Shown: piece after piece, positions 8,299-15,785 of the stretch | Layout: every line of letters starts with the position of its first letter | How positions within the stretch are numbered: position 1 is the first letter of the stretch | DNA from: Pantoea vagans | GTDB taxonomy: Bacteria; Pseudomonadota; Gammaproteobacteria; Enterobacterales; Enterobacteriaceae | Length of the DNA: 64,000 nucleotides | Direction of reading: 5' to 3' | Assembly: GCF_004792415.1 (NCBI RefSeq) | Contig: NZ_CP038853.1 | Span: 2,976,001-3,040,000 of the forward strand | Translations under genes and position numbers: made by a program | Notes under the pieces: model-generated | Databases searched by the model: none | Seen by the model: only the letters and a program-made list of their open reading frames with translations | Told to the model about the DNA's origin: nothing

Positions 8299-8991
8299 CT
8301 AGTGCAGCCGACGTACGCTCAGTGCCGCAGACCAGCGCTGTCGCTGACAGCGCGGACAGACGGCCTGCTGCTCCGCCTCGATCCTCTGCGTCTGGCCACA
8401 ATGGGTGCAGGCGTAGAGCGCGCTGACCGGCACGGTGCTGTAATCCTGTCGGTGCTCTGGCGGCAGCACGCTTAATCCGGCGCGCATCTCGTCATCATCA
8501 TAGAAATAGAGGCTGAGCTGACCATCGACTTCCACCAGCGCCAGCCGGATCTGCCCCAGATGCTCTACGCCGCTCTGGCGCAACTCCATATAGAACTCAT
8601 CTTCAGAAATATTCAGGTGATCCAGACTTTCCAGCACATACAGGCCATCTTTAATCAGCGTAATGACGTCGCCCTGTATCAGCCGTGAAAAGCGCGGACT
8701 GTGTGACGTCAGCCAGGTGGTCAGGCGGTAGAGCGCCAGCAATACCACAAACACCATAATCACCGGCAGCACCGGTACATCGTCATAAAACGTGACGTCA
8801 CCGGACGCAGAACCCAGCGTCAGGATCACCACCAGTTCGAACAGCGACAGCTGACGCACGCCGCGTCGTCCTGACACTTTCAGAAAAGTAAAAACCACCA
8901 GATAAGCGATCAGAACCCGCGCCACCACTTCAAATAAAAAGGTGGCTGGTTGATCGTTAAGTAAAAAACGGTGCCAGTCGAATGAGAACAT
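8299..8991 (-). CDS. DUF421 (YetF-like) membrane protein with C-terminal zinc ribbon
   Basis: A 230-residue inner-membrane protein. Three N-terminal helices (about 20-95) hold the DUF421 signature SGRRGVRQLSLFELVVILTLG. A cytosolic DUF421/YetF domain (VITLIKDGLYVLESL, LALVEVDGQLSLYF) follows. At the C-terminus two CxxC pairs, CTHCGQ and CPRCQ, about 14 residues apart, form a probable zinc ribbon, which is not part of the usual domain. DUF421 proteins have no firmly known role; YetF has been linked to membrane and spore-coat functions in Bacillus. A second, shorter DUF421 gene lies at 17970-18419. The start at 8991 has only a weak SD. Confidence 0.82.
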   Translation of the reverse strand: MFSFDWHRFLLNDQPATFLFEVVARVLIAYLVVFTFLKVSGRRGVRQLSLFELVVILTLGSASGDVTFYDDVPVLPVIMVFVVLLALYRLTTWLTSHSPRFSRLIQGDVITLIKDGLYVLESLDHLNISEDEFYMELRQSGVEHLGQIRLALVEVDGQLSLYFYDDDEMRAGLSVLPPEHRQDYSTVPVSALYACTHCGQTQRIEAEQQAVCPRCQRQRWSAALSVRRLH

Positions 8992-9569
8992 AGTCGGTTA
9001 AACATCCTGTTTTAAGAGGCGCACCGCTTAACCCGCCGCCCGTTGATCGCCCGCAGATTCAGGCCAGTAATAAGTAAATCTTGTCGCCAGCCCGTTAAAA
9101 GGCAAGCGAAGCAGTAACGTTAAAACAGGTAAGTCTGACCGCTCTGCATGTTGAGGAAAAGGTTAACAAAGCTGAAAATAACGCTGACGCGCTTCACGCT
9201 GCGCTTATCAACCCGACAGCGCAGGCAATAGTGAAAAATTCCTGTTTCTGAATGGATGACTTTTGCCGCTGCGCTTTTTCGTTTTCACTTCAATAATTTG
9301 CGAAGCACACCTCCCTGTCTATACTTTCCAGTAAGGCTTCCGCAAAATCCGTTAACATTCAGAGAAGCCACTCTTTTTCCTGCCGATAGCGCCGCACCTT
9401 TAGTTCTGCTATCTCACGCATCCAAACCGTCACAGGCTCTGTTGCCTGCAATTTAGCGTCTGTGACTTATGGCAAGGATCGCCAGTCTGCTTTGCATACC
9501 TGTAACGCCCTGACCCGTTTCACAACGGCTCGTCAGCGGGAAGCGTGTTGCTTTTTTTCGGGAGATGCC
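8992..9569. other. 578-base intergenic region with a promoter
   Basis: No gene supported by codon pattern or homology is visible between the divergent DUF421 gene and the glycan-enzyme gene. The part near 9290-9330 carries a good sigma-70/sigma-S type promoter, which would give a leader of about 240 bases before the GH-GT-UGM gene. Confidence 0.6.
9298..9325 (+). promoter_or_regulatory. Promoter of the GH-GT-UGM fusion gene
   Basis: TTGCGA, 16 bases, TATACT. The -10 context CTATACTT also resembles sigma-S promoters. Predicted transcription starts near 9332, leaving a leader of about 240 bases. No riboswitch is recognised in it. Confidence 0.5.
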
Positions 9570-12500
9570 ATGACGCCCTTTTCCAGTTTCTGGCAGGCCG
9601 GCTATGAAGGTGCCGATCATATCAATCCGGCCGGTTTTGCGCTGTCGATGAACGATCTGAACCAGCATCAGGCGCGGGCGGCAGAAGATTATGCAGCGCT
9701 GAGCCCCTTTGCCATTCGCACCGTGCGGGAAAGCGTCGGCTGGCGGCTATGTGAATGCGACGGCCGCTATGACTTCTCCACGGTCGCTGCACGGATGCAG
9801 GCCGCAGAGCAGCAGGGTATTCAGCTGAGCTGGACAATCTGTCACTACGGCTGGCCCGCGGGCGTCAGCCTGTTTGATCACGACTTTATCCCCCGTTTCG
9901 CTGCCTTCTGTGGCGCACTGGCCCGCTTCCTGGCGCCCTGGTATCAGCAGGCACCGATCTACTCTCCGATGAATGAGATCTCCTTTGTCAGCTGGGGCAT
10001 CTCAGTCGGGCTGTTTGCCTGTGAGGCGATCCCGGAGCCGGATCGGGCCGATGCCGCCAAGCGGCAGCTGGTGCGCGCTACCCTGGCCGCCTGTGATGCG
10101 ATCTGGCAGGCCGATCCGCGCGCCCGTGTGCTGCACTGCGATCCGCTGATCCATATCGTGCCCGACCCCGCCGATCCCGACAGCGACCGTCTGGCGCGTG
10201 AGATGTGTGACACCCAGTATCAGGCGTGGGACATGCTCAGTGGCCGCCGTAATCCGGAGCTGGGCGGCGCACCCCGCTATCTCGATCTGATTGGTGTCAA
10301 TTACTACCACGACAACCAGTGGGAACAGGGTTCAAACCGGCGGCTTTACTGGCATCTGGGCGACAGCCGACGCCAGCCGCTGCATCAGCTGCTGCTGCAG
10401 GTCTGGCAGCGCTATCAGCGGCCGCTGCTGCTGGCGGAAACCAGCCACGTCGGCAGCGGCCGTGGTGCCTGGATCCGTGAGATCGCCACACAGGTTGCAC
10501 AGGCGCAGCTGGCGGGCGCGAACCTGCTCGGCATCTGCCTCTATCCGATTCTGGATCGTCCCCTGTGGGAGGAAACCACCTTCTGGACCCGCAGCGGCCT
10601 GTGGGATCTCGATCTTATGGGCGCCGATCCTTACGCCCGTCAGTTACAGCAGCCTTATGCCGACGCCTTGCGTCAGGCGCAGCGCTTTTTGCAGCACATT
10701 ACGTCCCTACAACATCCCAGCCAGGAGCACACCATGAAACCACCTGTTCTCATCGTTTTCAGCCATTTACGCTGGGGTTTTGTTTTTCAGCGTCCGCAGC
10801 AGCTACTGACACGCCTGGCGCAGCACTATCGCGTGCTGTTTGTCGAGGAGCCGGTCTGGCAGGCGGGGCCACCAGGTCTGCACCAGAGCTCGCCTGCCGC
10901 CAACATCACGGTGATCCAGCCACATACCGACAGCGACGCGCCCGGCTTTCACGACAGCCAGATCGCCCCGCTGCTGCTGCTGCTGACGCCGCTGCTGGAG
11001 GAGGACGATCAGCCGCTGATCTGGTTCTATACGCCAATGGCACTGCCGCTGCTGACGCCTTTTGATCCGGCACTGGTGATTTACGACTGTATGGATGAGC
11101 TTTCGGCCTTTCAGAATGCGCCGCGCCAGCTGCAGCAGCGCGAATCGGCGCTGATGACCCGCGCCGATCTGGTCTTTACCGGCGGCTCCAGCCTCTATGA
11201 AGCGAAGCGTGATAAACACGCTCAGGTTTACTGCTTCCCCAGCAGCGTTGATGCCATTCATTTTGAACAGGCGCGCGATCGCACGAATCGTCATCCGTTA
11301 CAGGATGCCATTCCGTCGCAGCGTCTGGGCTATTACGGCGTGCTGGATGAGCGTATCGATCTGCCGCTGATAGCCGCGCTGGCAGACAGCCATCCCGAAT
11401 GGCAGATCATTATGGTCGGGCCGGTGGTGAAAATTGATCCCGCCAGCCTGCCGCAGCGCGCCAATATTCACTGGCTCGGTCAGCAGCCCTATCAGGCACT
11501 GCCGCAGTTTCTGGCAGGCTGGGATGTCTGTCTGATGCCGTTTGCCATCAATGCTTCGACCCGCTACATCTCTCCGACCAAGGTGCTGGAGTATATGGCG
11601 GCGCAGCTACCGATTGTCAGTACTGCCATTGTCGATGTGGCGCGCCACTACGCAGAAGAAGTGGCGGTTGCAGAGACGCATGCGGAATTTATTGCCGCCT
11701 GTGAACAGGCAATGGCAATCAGTGCCACAGAACGGCTGGCGCTGGCGGGACGGATGCAGGCCAAAGTCGATGCCACCTCCTGGGATCACACCGCAGAGCA
11801 GATACATGGCCTGATCCAGCAGGCGCTGACGCAGCGTCAGCCTGCTCTGAAGTCAGCCAGCCAGACCCGCGCGCAGGCTGACGTCACGCCTTTAACGCCA
11901 GCGATGCTGGAGAGCGATGCGGTGCCCTGCCTGATTATCGGCGCCGGACCGACGGGTCTGAGCGCCGGGTATCACTATGGCGAAGGCGCGGTGCTGCTGG
12001 AGAAAAACAGTACGCCTGGCGGCTGGTGCCGCTCGATTGACGATCAGGGGTTCACCTTCGACTATGCCGGTCACATCATGTTCTCGCAGGATCCCTACGT
12101 GTTGCAGCTTTATGAGATGCTGCTGGGCGACAATCTGCACTGGCAGGCGCGCGAGGCCTGGGTTTACAGCGATGGTGTTTATACCCGCTATCCCTTCCAG
12201 TCCGCGCTGCACGGCCTGCCGGTTGAGGTGGTAAAAGAGTGCGTGCTGGGCGCTATCGAAGCGCGTTATGGCGAAACAGCGGCGGCGGCCGTGCCGCTGG
12301 ATCGGGCGCGGGCGCGGCGGGATTGCTGTGCGGATGGCGCAATCCCCGATGAGGGCAGCAGCACCGGCGTGGTGGAGGGCGAAGAGGATTTCCAGCACTT
12401 TATTATGCGCACCTGGGGTAAAGGCATCGCGCGGCATTTCGCCCTGCCCTACAACCAGAAGCTGTGGAAGGTGCCGCTGACCGACATGGAAACCTCATGG

Positions 12501-13331
12501 CTCGGCGGACGTGTGCCGCTGCCCGATCTGTCACAGATCATCGATGGCGCGCTGCAACCGCTGGCGAAACCGGTCGGCCCCAACGCCCGTTTCGGCTATC
12601 CACTGCGCGGTGGCTTCCAGGCACTGATGTCAGGCTTTTTACCGCACCTGAAATGCACGCTGGAGACCGACACGACCCTGACCCGCATCTACCCACAGGC
12701 GCATGTCGCCCTGCTGGCGGATGGTCGCCACTACCGGTATGAGCAGTTGATCAGCACCATGCCGCTGCCGGAGCTGATTAAGCTGATGGGTGATGAGGTA
12801 CCGGAGAGCGTCCAGCTGGCGGCTCAGCAGTTGCAGTTTGTGTCGGTGCGCTGTGTGAATCTGGGCATTGGCCGGGCTGACCTCACTGAAAAACACTGGA
12901 TTTACTACCCTGGCGATACGCTGTTTCACCGCATCTTTGTACAGGGTAATGCCAGTCCGCACTGCAATCCGCCGGGCGGCTTCGGCTTAACCTGTGAAAT
13001 CACCTACAACGCGGCTAATCCGCTGCCGCTGGAGGGTGATGCGCTGATTGAGCGCTGCCGTCAGGATTGCATCCGGGTTGGCATGATCACCGCTAACGAT
13101 CCGCTGCTCTGCGCATCTGAGGTTGATATGCCTTACGCCTACGTGGTCTATGACCATGCGCGCAGCGAGAACGTGGCGCTGATCCGCCAGTGGCTGCTGA
13201 CCCAGGATATCCATCTGTCGGGTCGTTACAGCGAGTGGGAATATTACAACTCGGATCACGCCTTCCTGGCCGGTAAACGCGCGGCCGAAAATGTCCGTTT
13301 GCAACATGTCAGCGCAGGGACGCTTGGCTGA
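9570..13331 (+). CDS. Fusion protein: glycoside hydrolase + glycosyltransferase + UDP-galactopyranose-mutase-like flavoprotein
   Basis: 1253 residues from the ATG at 9570, which follows GGGAGATGCC; the frame is open further upstream but shows no start signal there. Residues 1-388 form a clan GH-A beta-glycosidase-like barrel, with SPMNEISFV (Glu136, presumed acid/base) and LLLAETSHVG (Glu290, presumed nucleophile). Residues 389 to about 745 form a GT4-like glycosyltransferase (HLRWGFVFQRPQQLL near its start; TKVLEYMAAQLPIVST near the sugar-nucleotide site). From about 785 follows an FAD domain like UDP-galactopyranose mutase (IGAGPTGLSAG at 790, then PGGWCRS, DYAGHIMFS, and NQKLWKVPL). No signal peptide or membrane helix is evident, so it is probably cytosolic. 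A well-placed SD (AGGAGCACACC) and an in-frame ATG at 10734 begin the second domain, suggesting that separate genes fused by loss of a stop. A role in a surface or storage glycan is inferred. Confidence 0.8.
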   Translation: MTPFSSFWQAGYEGADHINPAGFALSMNDLNQHQARAAEDYAALSPFAIRTVRESVGWRLCECDGRYDFSTVAARMQAAEQQGIQLSWTICHYGWPAGVSLFDHDFIPRFAAFCGALARFLAPWYQQAPIYSPMNEISFVSWGISVGLFACEAIPEPDRADAAKRQLVRATLAACDAIWQADPRARVLHCDPLIHIVPDPADPDSDRLAREMCDTQYQAWDMLSGRRNPELGGAPRYLDLIGVNYYHDNQWEQGSNRRLYWHLGDSRRQPLHQLLLQVWQRYQRPLLLAETSHVGSGRGAWIREIATQVAQAQLAGANLLGICLYPILDRPLWEETTFWTRSGLWDLDLMGADPYARQLQQPYADALRQAQRFLQHITSLQHPSQEHTMKPPVLIVFSHLRWGFVFQRPQQLLTRLAQHYRVLFVEEPVWQAGPPGLHQSSPAANITVIQPHTDSDAPGFHDSQIAPLLLLLTPLLEEDDQPLIWFYTPMALPLLTPFDPALVIYDCMDELSAFQNAPRQLQQRESALMTRADLVFTGGSSLYEAKRDKHAQVYCFPSSVDAIHFEQARDRTNRHPLQDAIPSQRLGYYGVLDERIDLPLIAALADSHPEWQIIMVGPVVKIDPASLPQRANIHWLGQQPYQALPQFLAGWDVCLMPFAINASTRYISPTKVLEYMAAQLPIVSTAIVDVARHYAEEVAVAETHAEFIAACEQAMAISATERLALAGRMQAKVDATSWDHTAEQIHGLIQQALTQRQPALKSASQTRAQADVTPLTPAMLESDAVPCLIIGAGPTGLSAGYHYGEGAVLLEKNSTPGGWCRSIDDQGFTFDYAGHIMFSQDPYVLQLYEMLLGDNLHWQAREAWVYSDGVYTRYPFQSALHGLPVEVVKECVLGAIEARYGETAAAAVPLDRARARRDCCADGAIPDEGSSTGVVEGEEDFQHFIMRTWGKGIARHFALPYNQKLWKVPLTDMETSWLGGRVPLPDLSQIIDGALQPLAKPVGPNARFGYPLRGGFQALMSGFLPHLKCTLETDTTLTRIYPQAHVALLADGRHYRYEQLISTMPLPELIKLMGDEVPESVQLAAQQLQFVSVRCVNLGIGRADLTEKHWIYYPGDTLFHRIFVQGNASPHCNPPGGFGLTCEITYNAANPLPLEGDALIERCRQDCIRVGMITANDPLLCASEVDMPYAYVVYDHARSENVALIRQWLLTQDIHLSGRYSEWEYYNSDHAFLAGKRAAENVRLQHVSAGTLG
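10722..10736 (+). promoter_or_regulatory. Internal Shine-Dalgarno and ATG at the hydrolase/transferase junction
   Basis: AGGAGCACACC directly precedes ATG at 10734, in frame with the fusion, exactly where the glycosyltransferase domain begins. It could yield a second product of about 865 residues lacking the hydrolase domain. Confidence 0.6.
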
Positions 13332-13345
13332 TCTGACGCAGCCCG

Positions 13346-13675
13346 TTATGAAAGACGCTGGCTGCATTTTGCGGCTTTCAGTGACTGCAACGCAGTGACC
13401 CGATTTTCCGCTTTCCGGGTGGCATTGTATTTTGCAATGCCATTGCCCAGTCCGAAATCCCCGACAAAGCCCAGCACGGTCAGGGCATTAAACTGGCCGG
13501 TCTGCTCAATATCACTCTGCACGCCGTGCGCTTTGCTCAGCTCCTGATCCAGGGCGTTGCAGTTCAGCGTCGCTGTCTCTTGCGGCGTCACCGCAGCCGC
13601 CTGTGGATAATGCTTGGTTGCGCAGCCGGTCAATACCAGCGTCACCAGCACCACTAAGACTCTCTGTTTACTCAT
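13346..13675 (-). CDS. Small outer-membrane lipoprotein of unknown function
   Basis: A 109-residue lipoprotein. Residues 1-17 are a type II signal peptide with lipobox LTGC (Cys17); the residue after Cys is Ala, consistent with outer-membrane sorting. The mature part has two further cysteines (LNCNALDQEL and LKAAKC), a central Gly-rich hydrophobic segment (VLGFVGDFGLGNGIAKYNA) and a basic C-terminus with the pattern TRKAENRVTALQSL. I know similar short proteins only as hypothetical lipoproteins. It converges with the fusion gene (14 bases apart). Confidence 0.65.
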   Translation of the reverse strand: MSKQRVLVVLVTLVLTGCATKHYPQAAAVTPQETATLNCNALDQELSKAHGVQSDIEQTGQFNALTVLGFVGDFGLGNGIAKYNATRKAENRVTALQSLKAAKCSQRLS

Positions 13676-14027
13676 TTCTCACTGCCTGTTTTTTGCTCAC
13701 TTAATAATGTTATCGGCAGCATACACCCGGAACATGAGTCTCTGACCTACCAATAATGGTCGAAACCGCTACGCTAATGTAGGATTCAGCGCGCTGCCGT
13801 CAGAGGCAGCCCGCTACCGACCGGAAGTCACGCAGCGAACGCACCTTACCCGTTCATCACTTCTGCAAGACCTTTCAAACAGTTAGCCAGCATGATGCTG
13901 CCCGCAGCAGCATTTAACGAGCAAAGCCTGAGCGTTAATTTGTCACGAAGCTGCCGCGCAAGCGAAGCCGGACACAGCAAATTTGCGCGTCGGGTTTATC
14001 AGAGTTTGTTCCAGATGAGGTTTCTCC
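13676..14027. other. 352-base intergenic region
   Basis: Lies between the divergent lipoprotein and AI-2E permease genes. I see no gene, no clear repeat and no convincing promoter match; only a weak hairpin, CTGCC/GGCAG, near 13795-13811. Confidence 0.5.
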
Positions 14028-15266
14028 ATGCGTTTTAAAGGATTGAACATCGGGTTTTTCATTTTGATTCTGGCTATTGCCACCGTCGCATTTTTCGAGG
14101 TGCTTTCGCCCTATTTCTCGCCGATTTTATGGGCGGCGATTCTGGCGGTGATTTTCCATCCGCTGAAAACCTGGCTGCGCAACCGACTGGGTGACCGCAA
14201 CGGCGTGGCCGCGTTAATTACCCTGTTCTGTATCTGCCTGATTGTCTTCACACCGCTGGCGATTATCGCCTCCTCGCTGGTGGTTGAAACCAACGCGGTC
14301 TATCACAAACTGCAGACCAACTCGTCGCAGTTCCCGGCCGTGTTCGCCGATCTGCTGCAGCATCTGCCGCGCTGGGCGAAGCATTTCCTGGCTGAAAATA
14401 ATCTGGATAACGCCGAACAGATTCAGCAGAAGCTCTCCTCGTTTGCGCTTAAGGGCGGTCAGTATGTGGCGGGCAGCGCCTTTATCATCGGTAAAGGGAC
14501 GTTCAGCTTCACCGTCGGCTTTGGCATCATGCTCTATCTGCTGTTCTTTCTGCTGAAAGATGGGTCCTATCTGGTGCATCTGATTCTGGAAGCGCTGCCG
14601 CTTTCTACTTACGTGAAGCATCACCTGATGGTGAAGTTTGCTGCCGTGGCGCGCGCGACGGTGAAAGGTACGGTGGTGGTCGGTATCGTGCAGGGTATTC
14701 TCGGCGGGCTGGCCTTCTGGTTTACCGGCATCGACGGCAGCCTGCTGTGGGGCGCGCTGATGGCGTTCCTCTCCCTGATTCCGGCGGTCGGTTCCGCCAT
14801 CATCTGGGTGCCTGCGGCGATCTTCTTCTTCGCCACCGGCGCACTGTGGAAAGGGCTGTTCCTGGTCGGTTTCTTCGTGGTGATTGTCGGTCTGGTAGAT
14901 AATATTCTGCGTCCGCTGCTGGTCGGCAAAGACACCAAAATGCCTGACTATATGATCCTGATCGCCACGCTGGGCGGCATGGAGATTTACGGCATTAACG
15001 GTTTTGTGATCGGTCCGGTCATTGCTGCCCTGTTTATCGCCTGCTGGAACCTGCTCTCCGGCCGCGATAACCGCGAAAACATCGAAGTCATCGACGAAGA
15101 AGTAATCGAAGAAGGCAAAAAGCAGTCTGAGACAGCCGCAGAAGCCGCAGCTGAAGCGGCGTCTGCGGCAGCCGATGCGGCCGCTGAAGCGGAAATCAAA
15201 GTGTCGGCGTTAGCGGCGGCGGAAAGAGAAGCTGCAGAAAGAAAGGCGGCGGAAAACAAAGCGTAA
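14028..15266 (+). CDS. AI-2E family (YdiK/PerM-like) permease with Ala/Glu-rich tail
   Basis: A 412-residue inner-membrane protein of the AI-2E transporter family, which includes TqsA, YdiK and ion antiporters. Helices cluster at the N-terminus (10-90) and from about 150 to 345. The family segments GIVQGILGGLAFWFTGI, FLSLIPAVGSAIIWVPAA and DNILRPLLVG are present. After about residue 350 it has an unusual cytosolic tail of alternating Ala and Glu/Lys (for example AAEAAAEAASAAADAAAEAE), probably a helix or coiled coil; E. coli YdiK (370) lacks it. GAGG lies 7 bases before the ATG. A strong terminator follows. The substrate is uncertain. Confidence 0.85.
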   Translation: MRFKGLNIGFFILILAIATVAFFEVLSPYFSPILWAAILAVIFHPLKTWLRNRLGDRNGVAALITLFCICLIVFTPLAIIASSLVVETNAVYHKLQTNSSQFPAVFADLLQHLPRWAKHFLAENNLDNAEQIQQKLSSFALKGGQYVAGSAFIIGKGTFSFTVGFGIMLYLLFFLLKDGSYLVHLILEALPLSTYVKHHLMVKFAAVARATVKGTVVVGIVQGILGGLAFWFTGIDGSLLWGALMAFLSLIPAVGSAIIWVPAAIFFFATGALWKGLFLVGFFVVIVGLVDNILRPLLVGKDTKMPDYMILIATLGGMEIYGINGFVIGPVIAALFIACWNLLSGRDNRENIEVIDEEVIEEGKKQSETAAEAAAEAASAAADAAAEAEIKVSALAAAEREAAERKAAENKA

Positions 15267-15329: not shown

Positions 15330-15647
15330 TTAGTTGGTCGCTTTGTTTTTCAGATCTTCAGCACCCTGCTTGGTTTTATCCCAGCCTTTTTCAGTGCCTT
15401 CTTTGGTTTTGTGCCAGCCTTTCTGAGCACCTTCGGTGATTTTGCTACCGGTGGTGTGGCTTTTGCCTTCAGCGGCGTGCTCAGACTTCAGCTTCAGCTC
15501 TTTGCCTTCGTTCTGGGTCTGATGCAGTTTTTCTTTCGCGGTGTCAGCGCCTTTATGCGCTTCCGCAACGGTGTTATCGGTAGTGGTAGCAGCAAATACT
15601 GGCGAGGCCAGCAAAATAGCAGACAGTGCAATAATTGATTTCTTCAT
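15330..15647 (-). CDS. Exported small Lys/Glu-rich repeat protein
   Basis: A 105-residue protein starting MKKSIIALSAILLA, a signal peptide cleaved after VFA. An ATG six codons earlier exists, but AGAGGGA stands before this one. The mature chain is highly hydrophilic and ends with three degenerate 10-11-residue repeats with Gly-Trp cores (AQKGWHKTKEG, TEKGWDKTKQG, AEDLKNK), recalling the amphipathic repeats of LEA-like or YjdC/CsbD-type stress proteins. It probably acts in the periplasm under osmotic or stationary stress, but that is inference; I know no characterised orthologue. Confidence 0.65.
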   Translation of the reverse strand: MKKSIIALSAILLASPVFAATTTDNTVAEAHKGADTAKEKLHQTQNEGKELKLKSEHAAEGKSHTTGSKITEGAQKGWHKTKEGTEKGWDKTKQGAEDLKNKATN

Positions 15648-15785
15648 AATTCCCTCTGTATTCATCGTTGCCGTGTAGGTTTTAATCCTGGCATAGCCTT
15701 CCCAGGAAAGATTTAAGAATAAACCAGGAATGAAAAAGGGCCAGTTTTCACCAGAAAAAGCCGCTGACTGTAGCTTTTTTATCCA

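Follow-up and report, generated by a model that had tools for sequence, protein, structure and literature searches.

A single gene of Pantoea vagans joins a hydrolase, a glycosyltransferase and a UDP-galactopyranose mutase (UGM) in one chain, and at the junction of the first two it carries a conserved internal Shine-Dalgarno (SD) sequence and start codon. The gene lies in a window of 64,000 nucleotides, which is the whole stretch of DNA that was analysed (Table 1). We consider it reasonably probable that it encodes a galactofuranose-handling enzyme in two nested forms and that the module to which it belongs is part of the general stress response. A wider reading is more tentative and is placed a little short of an even chance: that this is a widespread and unnamed general-stress pathway for a galactofuranose compound, with shuffled enzymes, in which the hydrolase/synthase ratio of the triple fusion is set by a conserved internal ribosome binding site in beta- and gammaproteobacteria. 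Beyond an earlier, sequence-only reading of the same DNA, the analysis adds a conserved start site inside the frame, a stress-promoter signature in relatives, the replacement of UGM by the bacterial glf in other loci and the spread of the fusion. No published description of the fusion was recognised, from titles and the beginnings of abstracts, among the open-licence PMC papers listed, and a search of the available text of PMC7083833 gave no match.

Table 1. Features of the fused gene and its upstream region (positions in the window)
Feature	Position	Strand	Remarks
Putative promoter TTGCGA-N16-TATACT, C ahead of -10	9298..9325	+	-10 kept in closest clade
Whole fused gene	9570..13331	+	1253 aa + stop; GH1-like hydrolase, GT4-type transferase, UGM
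GH1-fold hydrolase domain	9570..10664	+	residues 1-365
Hypervariable linker	10665..10733	+	residues 366-388
Internal Shine-Dalgarno AGGAG	10723..10727	+	6 nt ahead of internal ATG
Predicted nested frame GT4-UGM	10734..13331	+	internal ATG 10734-10736; 865 aa + stop
GT4-type glycosyltransferase domain	10734..11804	+	residues 389-745
Eukaryotic-type UGM domain	11919..13298	+	residues 784-1243
DCCADG motif in UGM domain	12321..12338	+	residues 918-923; variable low-confidence loop

A probable second start at the hydrolase/transferase junction

The sequence AGGA(G/A), followed by six bases and ATG, was present in all 39 close rows of the alignment (38 distinct), in a linker where most bases nearby vary, and its AGGA was invariant (39/39). 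Start-type codons reached 90% of rows in sixteen columns of this alignment. At the internal ATG column the SD core was in register in 38 of the 39 rows, and in the 39th (L071) it was present, shifted by an indel. Other than at the true start, the next best column had an SD core in 19/39 rows and the remaining 13 columns in 0-2. The true start at 9570 had one in 30/39, so the internal site is the better kept of the two. As a background, an SD core was found ahead of 52 of 1405 other in-frame ATGs (3.7%).

In 28 more distant fusions the ATG was always present and the SD core was retained in 23 (18/19 triple fusions and 5/9 hydrolase-transferase fusions, the contig end truncating one of the latter, L104) and missing in five; many of these rows are related and the counts do not represent independent events. 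A 1.1-Mb genome of the same family (G101) also retains both elements. The SD sequence sits in two codon phases: in Pantoea it encodes (Q/K/E)-E, and in Nitrosospira, Herminiimonas, Janthinobacterium and Variovorax it encodes x-G. Protein sequence is therefore not the conserved thing, and amino-acid constraint was ruled out as the cause of the motif. The mRNA near the internal ATG was less folded than the gene average, with a mean z of 1.28 over 58 genes and 2.14 in the P. vagans gene (z was >1 in 34/58 and <=1 in 24/58). At the transferase/mutase junction no comparable SD and start were found, and Rfam at gathering score matched no RNA element at 8900-14050 of the window.

With an SD sequence and start codon conserved within the frame, the gene probably yields a nested transferase-mutase chain in addition to the complete one. 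Ribosomes starting at 9570 would make the 1253-residue GH1-GT4-UGM chain and those starting at 10734 the 865-residue GT4-UGM chain; given two start sites in one frame, the hydrolase would be below the transferase-mutase in amount. The nested start is thereby a testable case of a fusion enzyme keeping unequal amounts of its parts. Similar arrangements are described for phage endolysins, where a single gene gives a nested in-frame product with a common stop (PMC9430671), and for Cas11b, where an in-frame internal start gives two polypeptides with one stop (PMC11899642). The same is predicted here, but with the difference that the nested form would carry two of three enzyme domains.

A plain trifunctional fusion made only as the full-length chain, with the junction SD as a relic of separate genes or a folding pause site, is fairly unlikely. 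A separate hydrolase gene does lie directly ahead of the transferase gene in one locus (L146) and is a neighbour gene in two others (L155 and L156), so that an old SD could persist after loss of the stop; the architectures are also interleaved on the transferase tree and some fusions may be young. Against it, the SD and its ATG are invariant in the close rows while most of the surrounding linker varies. Nearly all distant triple fusions retain the SD core, its codon phase being one of two and its spacing to the ATG being preserved, and it is better kept than its counterpart at the true start.

The fused frame and its three domains

Translation gave a single open frame of 1253 codons and one stop. 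The dN/dS values were 0.09-0.15 for the hydrolase, 0.03-0.08 for the transferase and 0.02-0.06 for the mutase in seven of eight pairs (dS of the eighth was not computable), and strong purifying selection acts on all three domains. The central claim of the sequence-only reading, that one polypeptide unites a hydrolase, a transferase and a flavin mutase, is confirmed by this frame and its three conserved, selected domains. The domains were also rightly called complete, with key catalytic residues retained in all three rather than lost from two or more, and the gene, said to stand between unrelated genes, is indeed solitary in the window. Pfam matched a group-1 glycosyltransferase domain and the flavin domain, with no match to residues 1-388 at E 0.01, and NCBIfam gave distant matches to TuaH and PRK07208, all under cut-off. 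In the P. vagans genome itself the one further match was a stand-alone hydrolase paralogue (38% identity), and bacterial Glf (PF03275) had no match there.

The hydrolase domain has a GH1 fold, and PF00232, the sequence family of GH1, did not match it at E 0.1; it is therefore named GH1-like and not GH1. It is like GH1 beta-glycosidases, e.g. Thermus Ttb-gly (3zjk), in fold and, by motif, in the positions of the catalytic glutamates, but differs in its low identity (20%), in having no Pfam GH1 match and in being fused to GT-UGM. By analogy with GH1 the putative acid/base is Glu136 (9975-9977) and the putative nucleophile Glu290 (10437-10439). In a 25-row alignment these residues, in NE and E-T motifs, were present in 23/25 and 25/25 rows respectively; both exceptions at Glu136 were solitary paralogues with Gln. 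The transferase has a GT-B fold resembling GT4 enzymes as well as the group-1 Pfam match. A similar GT4-type transferase is the teichuronic acid protein TuaH (NF047676, 85 bits), although the score is far under the 550-bit equivalog cut-off and the transferase here is fused. Among the UGM and transferase key positions counted, 16/17 were invariant across the 39 close rows.

Among PDB structures the flavin domain matched UGMs of Aspergillus and other eukaryotes (E ~1e-45), with sequence and fold similarity across the whole domain and ~28% identity to characterised UGMs. Its closest known systems are the eukaryotic-type UGMs of Aspergillus fumigatus (AfUGM, 3ute) and of 4dsg/4dsh, the latter presumably from Trypanosoma cruzi. 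From the alignment to these structures, H835, R981, Y1112, R1121, R1219, Y1225 and N1227, present in 39/39 close rows, pair with what we take to be AfUGM H63, R182, Y317, R327, R447, Y453 and N457, presumed substrate-contact or flavin-site residues. The residue that we number Tyr334 in AfUGM is not matched, being Ala1128 here (Ala in 38/39 close rows and Thr in one). This one residue lowers confidence in the substrate, so that we call the domain UGM-type for its fold and, for its function, UGM-like. It differs further from the eukaryotic-type enzymes in lying behind a GT4 domain in one chain and in an extra variable loop with DCCADG. A fixed GT-UGM channel was without support (pTM 0.54 for the predicted GT-UGM).

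These differences bear on whether the flavin domain acts on an NDP-sugar other than UDP-galactose, with the module handling a different furanose. The modest identity, the missing tyrosine and the family-specific DCCADG loop would allow it, but the remaining substrate-contact positions match UGM, and galK-galT lie beside the module in some loci and bacterial glf in sister loci; we regard it as unlikely.

The full-length, stop-free frame was found in 36 of 99 genomes searched (own included), all within 60 Pantoea genomes. Three more Pantoea genomes had broken copies (G003, G005 and G017) and one further copy was split by contig ends. Near-whole-length matches occurred on plasmids recorded under Pantoea, Erwinia and Chimaeribacter and on one with an Acinetobacter label; the copy on one Ewingella plasmid was frameshifted. 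An intact fusion was also present in a 1.4-Mb genome (G051). In a draw of 295 genomes of the order the full fusion occurred in three, all Pantoea (own included), and in a draw of 398 genomes of the phylum there was any match at 1e-60 in 17 and a whole-length match in two, both Pantoea (own included). The fusion is therefore patchy and not common. The sequence-only reading had allowed that close relatives might all have a stop before 10734; 0/39 close rows had a junction stop, which was seen only in distant relatives with separate genes. Assembly error, or loss of a stop by sequencing error, is ruled out by independent genomes with the intact frame, and the wider suspicion of error or of a decaying gene, for which the broken Pantoea and Ewingella copies might speak, is scarcely credible against the 36 intact Pantoea copies, the low dN/dS and the intact copy in the 1.4-Mb genome.

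Fused and separate forms of the module

A profile search of genome contigs with the transferase alignment matched at least 593 stretches, 579 of which were confirmed, and the best 80 loci were analysed together with 6 kb of flanking DNA on each side; absence refers to this stretch (16/80 were under 11 kb). Triple fusions numbered 20 among these best 80 loci (one, L089, is on the same contig as the close row L077), transferase-UGM fusions without a hydrolase of this type 19, such fusions with a separate hydrolase gene beside them two, and loci with all three genes apart one. There were six hydrolase-transferase fusions, three of them with glf; glf also occurred once with a separate hydrolase and seven times without one. 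The other 24 had neither a hydrolase of this type nor a mutase. By mutase type, 42 of the best 80 had UGM, 11 glf, none both and 27 neither. A Pfam scan of four next-door frames, some of which may not be genes, in the mutase-less L102, L131 and L142 gave no match.

Bacterial glf stands in for UGM in some loci. Its product (PF03275) was joined to a relative of this transferase, or encoded next to one, in Azospirillum, Sinorhizobium, Sphingobium and Deinococcus, and has the same genomic partner and the same expected reaction as the UGM domain but belongs to another branch of the flavoprotein family. G101 has kept the hydrolase-transferase part, has no UGM domain of this type and has glf elsewhere in the genome, and is one case fitting a swap of one mutase for the other; its glf adjoins epimerase and 6-phosphogluconate dehydrogenase genes and from this position may serve another glycan. 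Of 36 Pantoea genomes examined for glf three had it (G010, G023 and G027), the last two together with the fusion.

Outside Pantoea, triple fusions were found in further gammaproteobacteria and in betaproteobacteria. On a 103-row transferase tree the triple fusion required 14 state changes, at least nine of them forced by well-supported branches, and has therefore been gained or lost repeatedly. It represents one arrangement of a widespread module of transferase, mutase and hydrolase, fused or separate. The survey proposed in the earlier reading found both forms, and the separate adjacent genes mentioned there exist in Deinococcus, Chryseobacterium and Skermanella.

Among the best 80 loci, at >300 bits in each case, a GH2 enzyme was found in 23, a second GH1-like hydrolase fused to an RmlD-type domain in 12, galK and galT in 10 each (Massilia is one example) and an ABC exporter in nine. 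Methylomagnum has GT-UGM, GH2, galT, galK and the hydrolase in one row. A Streptomyces GH2 enzyme is reported to be a Galf-specific galactofuranosidase (PMC4560423).

From family chemistry the UGM domain, with reduced flavin, would convert UDP-galactopyranose to UDP-galactofuranose, the tethered GT4 domain would transfer galactofuranose to an acceptor, and the hydrolase would trim, proofread or remodel the product in the cytoplasm; the product may be exported or membrane-bound where the ABC exporter is present. Both galK/galT beside the module in some loci and the finding of UGM or glf but never both in a locus (0/80) were counted as support for the UDP-Gal route. The earlier suggestion that one chain makes and trims an unusual glycan is consistent with these expected activities. 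In the loci viewed, a galactofuranose pathway is indicated away from capsule and O-antigen clusters. Mammals do not make galactofuranose (PMC5583699).

Promoters and a probable link to stress

The EcfG (general-stress) motif, GGAAC-N17-20-GTT (PMC6599016), was found ahead of all four alphaproteobacterial transferase genes tested first and was absent ahead of both hydrolase genes tested (0/2). Eight further loci, picked by genus from plasmid listings, had it in six, giving 10/12 transferase genes in all, with a background of 158/3124 windows of the same loci. The search pattern allowed N15-20 and all ten matches were within N17-20; the motif was missing in Paracoccus and in one other locus. From these promoter sequences the gene sets of alphaproteobacterial relatives look to be switched on by general stress. 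PMC6599016 also lists adjacent EcfG-dependent genes of Sphingomonas melonis, 'Glycosyltransferase' (#1750) and 'Glycosidases' (#1751), which may be this transferase-hydrolase pair; an exact search of the genome contigs for the 25-nt motif of #1751 gave no match. Catalase, ferritin-like or DUF892 genes were near the module in 5/24 annotated regions (Ewingella, Erwinia, Phyllobacterium, Agrobacterium and Mesorhizobium), and in neither the other 19 nor the window. Because stress neighbours were this few, confidence in the preferred explanation and in the stress-pathway reading was lowered slightly.

In Pantoea, CTATACT lay 247-307 bases upstream in 12/12 printed rows with at least 76% identity to the P. 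vagans protein, and this strict -10 was absent in the 10/10 more distant rows printed; a TATA(A/C)TT box had a similar setting in 13/13 aligned rows of the other Pantoea clade. With a C before its -10 the putative promoter is compatible with what we take to be the sigmaS consensus, and it may be sigmaS-driven. The stress programme would then be EcfG in alphaproteobacteria and perhaps sigmaS-like in Pantoea, judging by relatives' promoters and some neighbours. The predicted pathway occurs in plant-associated, radiation-resistant and insect-associated bacteria, and it is apparently tied to stress in at least one class. NHEJ genes adjoin the module in Paracoccus. A table in PMC7022480 shows the Deinococcus radiodurans UGM gene dr_A0367 reduced in a strain with a mutated heat-tolerance RNA.

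The paired cysteines of the mutase domain

The UGM domain of the fused protein carries two neighbouring cysteines in a loop with the motif DCCADG (see table), and this pair is kept in 36 of the 39 aligned rows of close relatives. In the window and in alignment A4 the loop is variable outside the motif, and its structure is modelled with low confidence. The form CC.DG was found in 77 of 84 UGM frames scoring above 300 bits, duplicates being included among the 84, and is present as well in two Terriglobia loci. The cysteines may possibly serve as a redox or metal handle of the reduced-flavin enzyme.

Coordinates of features in the window and in related loci
Feature	Location	Strand	Remark
Leader, ~240 bases	window 9319-9569		separates putative promoter from start codon; contains conserved blocks
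DCCADG motif	window 12321-12338		loop of UGM domain
Small frame	window 15330-15665	-	weak likeness to glycine-rich GrrA/OscA1 RiPP precursor
Solitary hydrolase paralogue	L002 / G000:C1:2550940-2551926
Second GH1-like hydrolase + RmlD-type reductase	L067:4603-6837 (Sphingobium); L070:4388-6589 (Caballeronia)		fused
Acyl-CoA dehydrogenase (by annotation) + hydrolase domain	L069:5758-8271 (Deinococcus sp. D7000)		one frame
GT-glf, then two more large glycosyltransferase genes	L066:9337-14855; also L171, L172		rhizobial

Relatives of the hydrolase domain

A solitary hydrolase paralogue is widespread within the genus, and in both such sequences aligned Asn-Gln replaces the expected acid/base Glu position; next to the copy at L002 lie a gene for a PLD-like protein and one for a ketoacyl synthase. 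The GH1-like/RmlD-type fusion points away from the transferase gene in the Sphingobium and Caballeronia loci, and was found in 12 of the 80 loci (the best 80 of at least 579 confirmed transferase matches). At the rhizobial locus L066 the hydrolase domain sits in the last of the two extra glycosyltransferase genes.

Leader, small frame and a reduced genome

The leader of the fused gene had no match in Rfam. The small frame scored 20.1 bits against the GrrA/OscA1 model, under the cut-off of 31. The fusion is still intact in the strongly reduced 1.4 Mb genome G051 (L077 / L089, on a contig labelled Pantoea sp. Nvir).
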